Below are positions 18,194 to 21,752 of a DNA stretch of 34,931 bases, piece by piece (within the stretch, counting starts at the first letter, position 1; the number at the start of each line of letters is the position of its first letter). A program made the translations under genes and the position numbers. The notes under the pieces were generated by a model. That model was not told where the DNA came from, made no database searches, and saw only the letters and a list, made by a program, of their open reading frames with translations. Origin of the DNA: Acidithiobacillus sp. (GTDB lineage: Bacteria > Pseudomonadota > Gammaproteobacteria > Acidithiobacillales > Acidithiobacillaceae); assembly GCF_023256195.1 (NCBI RefSeq), contig NZ_JAGDWX010000020.1, forward strand, positions 1 to 34,931, written 5' to 3'.

Positions 18194-21001
18194 TCAGTCG
18201 GATCCCCCGACACGGCTGGCATCGGGGATGTGAATGGCGTCCAGCAGAGCGCTGGACAAACGGCGGTGTTGCTTTTCCAGCTCTTCCATCTGCTGTACCC
18301 AATGCTGCCCATCCCGGTCCGCAAAAGCGGCAATGGCATCGTGATAGTCCCGATACACCGCGAGAATCCCTTGGGCTTGCGCCTCGGGTAAGCGGCAGAT
18401 ATCCCGGTAGGTTGGGCAGTTGCTGGGATCGCGCAGGGATGGCAGGTCGAGGATGGTCCAGGACTGCCGCAGGGCCTTGCGCAACACCGCGTGTTCGGTC
18501 ATCTGCTCGGCATAGATCCCCAGCAGGCTGCGCTGCCCCGTCTGCCGCAGCGGCGCGCAGCCGGATATGAGAAACTCGCGCAGAGAGGCCAGGGGCATGG
18601 GGCGGGCGATGGCATATCCCTGCAGGTAGCGCACCCCCAATACCGCCACGGCGTCACGGATGGCCGCCGTTTCCACGCCTTCGGCCACCAGCTCCACATC
18701 GAGACTGGAGCTCAACTCCAGCAGGGCCTCGACGAAATGCAGGTCGCCGGGGCGCTCCTCCAAACCCCGGACGAAGGCCTGATCCAGCTTGATCTTGTCG
18801 ATGGGTAGCTCCTTCAGACGCAGGAGCGAGGAGTACCCGCTGCCGATGTCGTCCAAAGCCAGTCGGACACCGATGGCCTTGAGATCCAGGAGATGATCCT
18901 GAGCCAGGCGTCGATCGAGGAAGTCCCCGCTCTCCAGCAGCTCGAAGACCACGCGATGAGGAGCGACCCGCTGCCCCAGCAACGTGTGCTGCACGCACTT
19001 GAGGCAGGTGACGCCGATGAGCTGAGGATCGAGGTTCACCGATACCCACAGCTCCGGGTCCAGATCGCTCAGCGCAGTCAGAGCGGCCAAGGACTGCTGC
19101 AAGATCTGCTGAGACAGGTCGAAAAGGTCGGTTTCCTGGAACTGGGGCAGGAAGTCACCAGGGGCGAGGACGGTGCCGTCCTCCCCGCGTATCCGCGCCA
19201 GCGCCTCGATCCCAACCACACGGCCCGTCTGCTGATCCCAGATGGGCTGAAACCAGGCCTCGGCACCCTGAACGCGAAAGCGTTCCCGCAGGGGGTAGAG
19301 CCGTTTGGCACTTTGGGGAGCCTCCCAGAAGGACCAAGGCCGCAGACGCTGCCCCTTTTGCTGTTTGGCGGCGAACAGAGCCTGATCCGCCTCCCGCAGC
19401 AGCTCATCCAGATTCCCCTGGGCGGAAAAGGGATAGATGCTGATCCCCATGCTGACGCCAATGTGCGCTTCTACCCCGTCGCGCAGGTGGTAAGGCTGGC
19501 GCAGGGCCCGCTGAACCTTGTCGAGAATGGGCTCCAACTCATCCAGCTGACGCAGTCCCTCCAGTATCAGGACAAACTCGTCGCCTCCCAGACGGGCGAT
19601 GGCATCGCTGCGGCGCAACTGATCGCGCAGTCGCTGGGCCACCAGCACCAAAAGGGCATCTCCCTGATCGTGGCCGTAGCGATCGTTGATGGGCTTGAAA
19701 TCGTCCAGATCCAGCATCACCACCGCCAGAAGGCGCTCGTCCGCATCGGCGCGACGTTGCGCCCGCAGCAGTTCCTCGTCCAGCGCGCGGCGATTGAGCA
19801 GATCCGTCAGCGGATCGTGGCGCGCCAGACGCTCCAAGGTCGCTTCGCGAGCCTTCTGATGGCTGGTATCGAAAAAGTGCGCGATATAGTGGCTGACCTG
19901 CCCGCTCCCGTCCTGCACAGCGGTGATGCTCAGAAACTCGGGATAGACCTCGCCATTCTTGCGGCGATTCCAGATCTCCCCTTGCCAGGCTCCCTCCAGC
20001 TCGATCTGCCGCCACATGGCCTCATAGAACTCCGCGCCCTGTTTGCCCGAATGCAGGATGGCCGGCGTCAGGCCCCGTACCTCCTCCAAGCTGTACCCGG
20101 TGACGCGGGTGAAGGCCTGATTGACCTTGACGATGCGCCTTTTCGCATCGGTGATCATGATGCCTTCCTGGGACTCGAAGGCTCGGGCCGACAAACGGAG
20201 TTCCTGTTCCTTTTCCCGAGACTGGGTCACATCCCTCTGCACCGAGACGAAATGGGTGACCTGTCCATGCGCGTCCATCACTGGGCTGATGTTGAGAGCG
20301 TTCCAGAAAGGCGTGCCGTCGCGGCGATAATTGAGGAGCTCGCCGTGAAAACCCCGACCCTCGGCAAGGGCGTTGCGCAGGCTCTGCCGCATGGCCGGAT
20401 CCGTATCGGGTCCCTGCATGAAACGGCAGTTCTTGCCCAGGATATCGTCCAGCTCATAGCCGCTGAGGCGCAGGAAGGCTGGGTTGGCGTAGACCACCCG
20501 CTGCTCGGCATCCGTGAGCAGCACGCCCTCGTCGATGGCGCGCAGGGCCGCCGCAAAGCAACGGTCCCGCCCGTCCCGTTCCTCTTCGAAGAGCACCTCG
20601 GCGATGACGGCAGCGATGCTCTCCAGAATCCGCACCTGCTCGGAATTCGGGGCGCGCTCGGTGAAACTCGACAAGGCAAAAGTGCCGAGAACATTGCCGA
20701 AACTGTTGCGGATCGGGGTGGACCAGCAGGCCAGCAGGGTGAATTCCTCAGCCAGATCCCGAAGCCCCGCCCAGCGCGGATCGCGCAAGGTTTGGCTGAC
20801 GAAGACGGAATCGTTGCGCAGCACGGCGTTGCCACAGGAGCCGCTCTCGGGCCCCGGACGCAGGCCGTCCAGACGCAGGCGCGCCGCCTCCGGAACGCTC
20901 GGCGCGGCAAAGAGGCGCAGAACCCCGTCGCCGTCCAGCAGCATGACCGAGGCCAGCGCTCCCTCCGTCAATCTCTCAGCCAAGAGACAAAGACTTTCCA
21001 C
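18194..21001 (-). CDS. GAF-LOV-PAS-GGDEF-EAL protein: predicted blue-light-responsive c-di-GMP enzyme
   Basis: A 935-residue cytosolic signalling protein. GAF (about 1-140) has ESGSCGNAV and CWSTPIRNSFGNVLGTFAL. PAS-1 (about 150-262) is a LOV domain: photoactive Cys192 in GKNCRFMQG, flavin-contact N224, N234, N237 and Q255 in LLNYRRDGTPFWNALNIS and VQRDVT. A second PAS (about 268-385) lacks this cysteine motif. GGDEF (about 390-555) has an intact GGDEF at 472-476 and an RxxD inhibitory site R463-D466. EAL (about 570-815) keeps E599, N656, E687, D717/D718, K738, E774 and Q794. A further helical segment (820-935) is unassigned. The start is GTG at 21001 with a poor ribosome site; protein-like sequence continues 29 codons upstream without a usual start codon. 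It probably makes or degrades c-di-GMP according to light and GAF input. Confidence 0.9.
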   Translation of the reverse strand: MESLCLLAERLTEGALASVMLLDGDGVLRLFAAPSVPEAARLRLDGLRPGPESGSCGNAVLRNDSVFVSQTLRDPRWAGLRDLAEEFTLLACWSTPIRNSFGNVLGTFALSSFTERAPNSEQVRILESIAAVIAEVLFEEERDGRDRCFAAALRAIDEGVLLTDAEQRVVYANPAFLRLSGYELDDILGKNCRFMQGPDTDPAMRQSLRNALAEGRGFHGELLNYRRDGTPFWNALNISPVMDAHGQVTHFVSVQRDVTQSREKEQELRLSARAFESQEGIMITDAKRRIVKVNQAFTRVTGYSLEEVRGLTPAILHSGKQGAEFYEAMWRQIELEGAWQGEIWNRRKNGEVYPEFLSITAVQDGSGQVSHYIAHFFDTSHQKAREATLERLARHDPLTDLLNRRALDEELLRAQRRADADERLLAVVMLDLDDFKPINDRYGHDQGDALLVLVAQRLRDQLRRSDAIARLGGDEFVLILEGLRQLDELEPILDKVQRALRQPYHLRDGVEAHIGVSMGISIYPFSAQGNLDELLREADQALFAAKQQKGQRLRPWSFWEAPQSAKRLYPLRERFRVQGAEAWFQPIWDQQTGRVVGIEALARIRGEDGTVLAPGDFLPQFQETDLFDLSQQILQQSLAALTALSDLDPELWVSVNLDPQLIGVTCLKCVQHTLLGQRVAPHRVVFELLESGDFLDRRLAQDHLLDLKAIGVRLALDDIGSGYSSLLRLKELPIDKIKLDQAFVRGLEERPGDLHFVEALLELSSSLDVELVAEGVETAAIRDAVAVLGVRYLQGYAIARPMPLASLREFLISGCAPLRQTGQRSLLGIYAEQMTEHAVLRKALRQSWTILDLPSLRDPSNCPTYRDICRLPEAQAQGILAVYRDYHDAIAAFADRDGQHWVQQMEELEKQHRRLSSALLDAIHIPDASRVGGSD

Positions 21002-21141
21002 GAGGTCCCGGGCACCGTCGAGAACCGTACCCGACTTATCCTGTACTACCGAATCTAAGATAGCTCCACTCCCCTTCCAGCGAGCTCAGGTCCAAACCTC
21101 TCCGTGTTCCCGTCTCGGCTGTCCAGAGACCTGCCCACCGA

Positions 21142-21675
21142 TCAGGACGGCAGGTAGGGTGCTACGCCGAAGGTTTCGAACACGGTATCGATGGCTTGAT
21201 GCTGCGCTCCGTGGACCACGGCATCGAAGATGTCCTGATCCGTCCAGCCCAGACGGCGCAATTGCTCTACCTCTTTTGCGCCGACACTGTGTGGATCATG
21301 CACCGCTTTGAGGACATAGTCCAGAAGGGCATTTTCCCGATCTGTCAATGGACCCTGCGCCGGTTGCTTGCGCGCCTTGGCGATGGCCTCCTTGCTGAAT
21401 CCGGCATTGAGGAGCAATGCCTCATTAAACCCAATACAAAATTTGCAGTTGCCTTCTTCCGACAGGATATATCGCAACAAAGCCAAGAAATTGGCAGACA
21501 GATGCGGATGCTGACCAAAATATCCCAGATTTTGCCATTGACTGCGCAAAAGCGCGGGACTCACGCCAAAGAGCTGCAAACCTTCGGGCACTCCGCCAAA
21601 AGCTTTTTGTATCTCGCCATAGATTTGCGCTAGTTCGCCTTGTGCCTGTTCCGGAGGGGTAAGTTTTAGGTCCAT
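21142..21675 (-). CDS. AhpD-like (carboxymuconolactone decarboxylase family) protein
   Basis: A 177-residue member of the AhpD/CMD superfamily, all-helical, often thiol peroxidases or partners of them. The redox pair is C77 and C80 in EEGNCKFCIGFNEALL. In classical AhpD the motif is CxxCxxxH; here the last position is Asn84. A peroxidase-related or dehydrogenase-associated role is possible, and peroxidase activity is not assured. The ATG at 21675 is chosen over 21696 because AAAGGAG lies 9 bases upstream of it. The promoter and an overlapping inverted repeat are directly upstream. The downstream LOV-GGDEF-EAL gene starts 140 bp later on the same strand. Confidence 0.82.
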   Translation of the reverse strand: MDLKLTPPEQAQGELAQIYGEIQKAFGGVPEGLQLFGVSPALLRSQWQNLGYFGQHPHLSANFLALLRYILSEEGNCKFCIGFNEALLLNAGFSKEAIAKARKQPAQGPLTDRENALLDYVLKAVHDPHSVGAKEVEQLRRLGWTDQDIFDAVVHGAQHQAIDTVFETFGVAPYLPS

Positions 21676-21752
21676 CGCAATTTGCTCCTTTCGCATTCCG
21701 CTTAATTAGGACAACGCGGGCTGAACGCCAAGTGAGTCGGCCCGCTCTTATT

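Follow-up and report, generated by a model that had tools for sequence, protein, structure and literature searches.

On the reverse strand of the window (the whole stretch of 34,931 nucleotides analyzed here) lies a gene whose product is rather likely to be a soluble one-component blue-light receptor, predicted to change c-di-GMP mainly through its EAL phosphodiesterase domain. In the scheme that we propose, FMN would sit in the LOV domain, and blue light would drive the formation of an adduct between Cys192 and the flavin. The signal would then pass from the C-terminal helix of the LOV domain through the second PAS domain to GGDEF-EAL, and the c-di-GMP level would shift, mainly by an altered phosphodiesterase activity of EAL. 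The GAF and the C-terminal CZB-like domains would add chemical inputs.

The Pfam matches of GAF_2, PAS_9, GGDEF and EAL in this protein were all far below chance, PAS_9 being found in two stretches with the best one at residues 158-260. The LOV domain that the first-pass annotation had placed in a GAF-PAS-GGDEF-EAL protein was borne out by profiles, by structural relatives and by conservation (Table 1). Opposite the gene, a long antisense open reading frame runs from 18893 to 21058.

Table 1. Features of the LOV gene and of its predicted product.
Feature	Position in the window	Strand	Basis or remark
GAF-LOV-PAS-GGDEF-EAL-(CZB-like) protein, 935 aa from GTG	18194..21001	(-)	ORF, Pfam
Probable 20-codon N-terminal extension, ATC start at 21059-21061	21002..21061	(-)	Orthologue comparison
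GAF domain, residues 4-136	20594..20992	(-)	Pfam GAF_2, E 9e-14
LOV domain, residues 150-262	20216..20554	(-)	NCBIfam LOV profiles, PDB LOV matches
Cys192 codon, predicted flavin-adduct cysteine	20426..20428	(-)	Sequence; invariant in 6/6 orthologues
Second PAS domain, residues 270-384, not LOV	19850..20194	(-)	Profile scores
GGDEF domain, residues 393-551, GGDEF and RxxD intact	19349..19825	(-)	Pfam, alignment
GGDEF signature, residues 472-476	19574..19588	(-)	VGDEF in the A. caldus orthologue
EAL domain, residues 571-801, catalytic residues complete	18599..19291	(-)	Pfam, alignment
C-terminal helical domain, residues 810-928, possibly degenerate CZB	18218..18574	(-)	

The first-pass annotation had suggested a comparison of the first PAS domain with LOV and other PAS profiles, and LOV was clearly preferred. 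When scanned alone against NCBIfam, this domain obtained 127-129 bits with the blue-light LOV profiles (blue-light-activated histidine kinase, the YtvA family and two related families), with E about 1e-37, against 77 bits with NifL. Likewise, LOV crystal structures were the closest solved sequences in the PDB (E to 1e-34); the best PDB match obtained 122 bits, and no single domain of the FAD redox PAS of MmoS scored above 58. A flavin redox PAS of the NifL or MmoS kind was thus rejected as the best match, since LOV profiles and structures scored higher. For the second PAS domain the pattern was reversed (DibA 144 bits, NifL 73, LOV 42). The first PAS domain carries the motif GKNCRFMQ with Cys192, and its prediction as a canonical FMN-type LOV domain with an adduct-forming cysteine is well supported.

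In spite of the cysteine, the protein may in reality respond to oxygen or to the redox state of its flavin. Under such a reading, the flavin PAS would serve as a redox or oxygen sensor resembling NifL, MmoS or DosP, and the cysteine would be a relic or an extra. A published comparison places most PAS domains of Acidithiobacillus c-di-GMP proteins among the sensors of oxygen and redox state (PMC6416229). Sensing of this kind is required by a chemolithotroph, and the overall architecture of the protein resembles that of DosP. However, the LOV profiles lead NifL by about 50 bits and N-C-R is strictly conserved in the orthologues of two genera, which makes a redox or oxygen sensor improbable.

The host is a member of the Acidithiobacillaceae, a sister species of the acidophilic sulfur oxidizer Acidithiobacillus caldus and itself probably a sulfur oxidizer, so that the guess of a chemolithotroph from acidic sites, made from the sequence of the window, was a good one. 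Six orthologues were found, in A. caldus and in a second genus, which we infer to be probably 'Igneacidithiobacillus', a name given to the sister genus (PMC8528912, PMC11021618). The A. caldus orthologue, at 260-263 kb (L076:8067-10967), is 88% identical and has the same neighbourhood. As the positions of the 15 GGDEF matches on the A. caldus chromosome parallel the numbering of the 15 ACAty GGDEF genes of PMC4331095, the orthologue of strain ATCC 51756 can be named ACAty_c0259 by map position only.

In both genera the LOV gene adjoins radA and alr. The same-strand gene upstream of it (21142-21696) resembles a peroxidase-related (AhpD-like) family, at a score below the family cut-off, and this neighbour is common to the window and A. 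caldus. Because of the shared radA/alr neighbourhood in both genera and the peroxidase-related neighbour in A. caldus, vertical inheritance of the LOV gene from the common ancestor of the two genera is likely. The tree built from LOV domains had many open forks, the Cys-less domains described below and the sister-genus orthologues each forming a strongly supported group. It did not join the window LOV to those of the sister genus, so shared descent rests on the locus and on whole-protein similarity.

Residues N191, C192, R193, Q196, N224, N234 and Q255 were identical in all six orthologues from the two genera, and the LOV domains of the sister-genus orthologues are only about 51-55% identical to that of the window. 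Thus, the LOV hallmark GKNCRFMQ and its cysteine, already pointed out in the first-pass annotation, are not only present but conserved. From the list of flavin-contacting residues given there, N224, N234 and Q255 were retained, but N237 is a serine in the sister genus. R209 fits this list better; it is kept in the sister genus, is replaced by His in A. caldus, and is presumably the second FMN-phosphate arginine, as judged from an alignment to YtvA.

Between the window gene and that of A. caldus, dN/dS was 0.086 overall, 0.090 in LOV, 0.075 in GGDEF and 0.068 in EAL. The gene is therefore under purifying selection, including its LOV domain. These values bear on the idea that the LOV domain is vestigial, the protein being constitutive or acting through its GAF or C-terminal domain. 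The change of R209 to His in A. caldus and, in the related genome G014, a degenerate LOV domain that reads Y-C-T would suit such a loss, but the LOV value of 0.09 is like those of the catalytic domains and the pocket residues are kept in all six orthologues, so that we regard a vestigial LOV domain as very improbable.

LOV-like domains were also observed elsewhere. On contig C25 of the same genome, two neighbouring GAF-PAS-GGDEF genes (L084:4103-5758 and L084:8030-9616) contain a LOV-like PAS; both domains are devoid of N-C-R and of R209 and have kept both Asn and the Gln. In the LOV tree they group with similar domains from other members of the family as one clade; in A. caldus, the map positions of their counterparts correspond to ACAty_c1177 and c1184. 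As these two Cys-less domains of the same genome have lost N-C-R, the full LOV signature is not the default of this PAS lineage. The degenerate domain of G014 belongs to a GAF-PAS-PAS-GGDEF relative (L081:7009-8847) in which no EAL domain was present in the open frame as read; its decayed motif, GRYCTILQ, retains the Cys and has lost the flanking Asn and Arg. At L025 and L028 (genomes G003 and G011), the motif is GRDCKFLQ: the Cys is kept, Asn is changed to Asp and Arg to Lys, and the second Arg is absent.

In the window protein, the GGDEF motif, the RxxD I-site and the metal and catalytic residues of EAL are all intact. None of the EAL residues that correspond to E, N, E, DD, K, E, E and Q in active enzymes varies among the orthologues. 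The GGDEF signature is likewise intact in the sister genus, whereas the A. caldus orthologue has VGDEF, in agreement with the published prediction of ACAty_c0259 as an inactive cyclase (PMC4331095); loss of cyclase activity through this substitution is itself a prediction. A DibA phosphodiesterase equivalog of NCBIfam was also tried as a name for the protein and was rejected (515.9 bits, below the curated cut-off of 980).

The first-pass annotation had considered both enzymes active and had proposed that light might select between synthesis and breakdown. The first statement holds for the residues of the window protein but does not extend to A. caldus. The second corresponds to a bifunctional switch, in which light would tip one and the same protein towards synthesis by GGDEF or towards breakdown by EAL; besides the intact sites of the window protein and the intact GGDEF of the sister genus, it can draw on LadC, where LOV drives a cyclase more than 10,000-fold (PMC10396304). 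This proposal is weakened by VGDEF in A. caldus: the closest orthologue is predicted to have lost the cyclase (PMC4331095) while its gene is still under purifying selection, and we hold a bifunctional switch to be unlikely. Since the A. caldus gene has VGDEF and yet is under such selection, the function that has been kept is most simply a phosphodiesterase. Hence the output common to both species would most likely be light-controlled c-di-GMP breakdown by EAL, the reading that we prefer. VGDEF in A. caldus also suggests that the GGDEF domain, though it looks catalytically competent in the window species, is probably secondary or allosteric.

Comparison of the orthologues also bore on the start of the gene. 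The GTG listed as start in the window (21001) is GTA in the A. caldus gene, and 20 codons upstream the sister-genus orthologues that reach there have ATG or GTG, the window having ATC and A. caldus ATT. From these two facts, the true start is probably the ATC at 21061, 60 nt upstream of the GTG, and the comparison is most simply explained by a rare ATC/ATT start. In the window, a GGGGAG sequence resembling a ribosome-binding site is found at 21069-21074, seven bases before the ATC.

The AlphaFold2 model of the protein had a mean pLDDT of 85 and a pTM of 0.45, so the individual domains can be trusted and their arrangement is not reliable. Its best multidomain fold matches were DosP and PA0861, followed by LadC (8c05) and Brucella LOV-PAS constructs. 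In this model, the last 120 residues are helical. Among the CZB-type ligands, His, Cys and His are kept in the window protein and the fourth is Tyr, which is His in the sister genus, whose C-terminus keeps His, Cys and HxxxH. However, the C-terminus gave no Pfam match to PF13682 (CZB) and nothing significant when its model was searched with Foldseek. In pairwise profile searches it did not match the A. caldus globin-GGDEF-EAL proteins, which end in a canonical CZB. Its only alignment, with hhalign (80%), was to the C-terminal part of a globin-GAF-GGDEF-EAL paralogue, which Pfam does not recognize as CZB either; the CZB of DgcZ was its top VIA match, at Z 9.2, which is not above the helical background. 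That the C-terminus is a degenerate CZB domain is therefore suggestive only. CZB proteins containing EAL are known (PMC8262984). The paralogue (L112:3097-6300) has the architecture protoglobin-GAF-GAF-GGDEF-EAL, and it ends in what resembles a degenerate CZB (CRLGRFL, HxxxH).

The host genome (1.98 Mb in 37 contigs) contains 7 GGDEF matches, 4 EAL matches (3 over the full domain) and 2 PilZ. No BLUF domain was found in it. Two genes of the photolyase/cryptochrome family (L115:1423-2919 and L116:63-1619) are consistent with some exposure to light. LOV-GGDEF(-EAL) is a known kind of protein, as about 18% of the 1390 bacterial LOV proteins in a published survey couple LOV to GGDEF, with or without EAL (PMC4844311). 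A light-controlled c-di-GMP switch had been called unexpected in such a host; given this share, the photolyase genes and the Qipengyuania flava circuit described below, it is less so. In the literature searched (open-licence papers), no LOV domain was linked to Acidithiobacillus or Acidithiobacillia, and no chemolithotroph was described with a LOV domain and photoreceptor. A LOV-c-di-GMP protein was apparently not previously recognized in the Acidithiobacillus group, whose sensors have been read as oxygen/redox sensors.

In A. caldus, for which a gene knockout method is available (PMC4331095), c-di-GMP governs motility and attachment, and it is linked to biofilm formation in biomining acidophiles. 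Its inputs there are, in the published view, oxygen and redox state, and light would join them if the LOV input is a conserved one. A wider proposal, which we put forward tentatively and with more doubt than belief, is that two sister genera of extreme-acidophile chemolithoautotrophs adjust c-di-GMP by blue light and, through it, attachment or sulfur metabolism, the output having been rewired between sister species (both cyclase and phosphodiesterase in the window species, the phosphodiesterase alone in A. caldus). The pair formed by GGDEF here and VGDEF in A. caldus is a natural experiment on the output that is under light control.

Several known systems can be compared with the window protein. 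In SL2 of Synechococcus elongatus, a light-activated phosphodiesterase (PMC8846402), as in the protein known here from its sequence, a canonical LOV domain with its Cys precedes GGDEF and EAL on the same polypeptide; the host of SL2 is a phototroph, however, and as described SL2 is devoid of the GAF, second PAS and C-terminal CZB-like domains. In LadC, LOV also controls GGDEF, but this domain is the sole effector, in a light-activated cyclase. DosP and PA0861 (RbdA) share the PAS-GGDEF-EAL order, but their PAS domains are not LOV, and DosP senses oxygen by heme. The closest relative, ACAty_c0259, differs by VGDEF and by His in place of R209, and its description in the literature is without a LOV domain. 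Finally, in Q. flava, a deep-sea alphaproteobacterium, a LOV kinase (LOV-1477) acts through a cyclase (DGC-2902) and a PilZ protein (mPilZ-1753) on thiosulfate dehydrogenase (PMC10267684). There, LOV resides in a histidine kinase and the cyclase is a separate protein. By analogy, a sulfur oxidizer that relays blue light by way of LOV and c-di-GMP makes a similar biology plausible here, and the link between LOV, c-di-GMP and sulfur in the deep-sea bacterium would then extend to acid environments.
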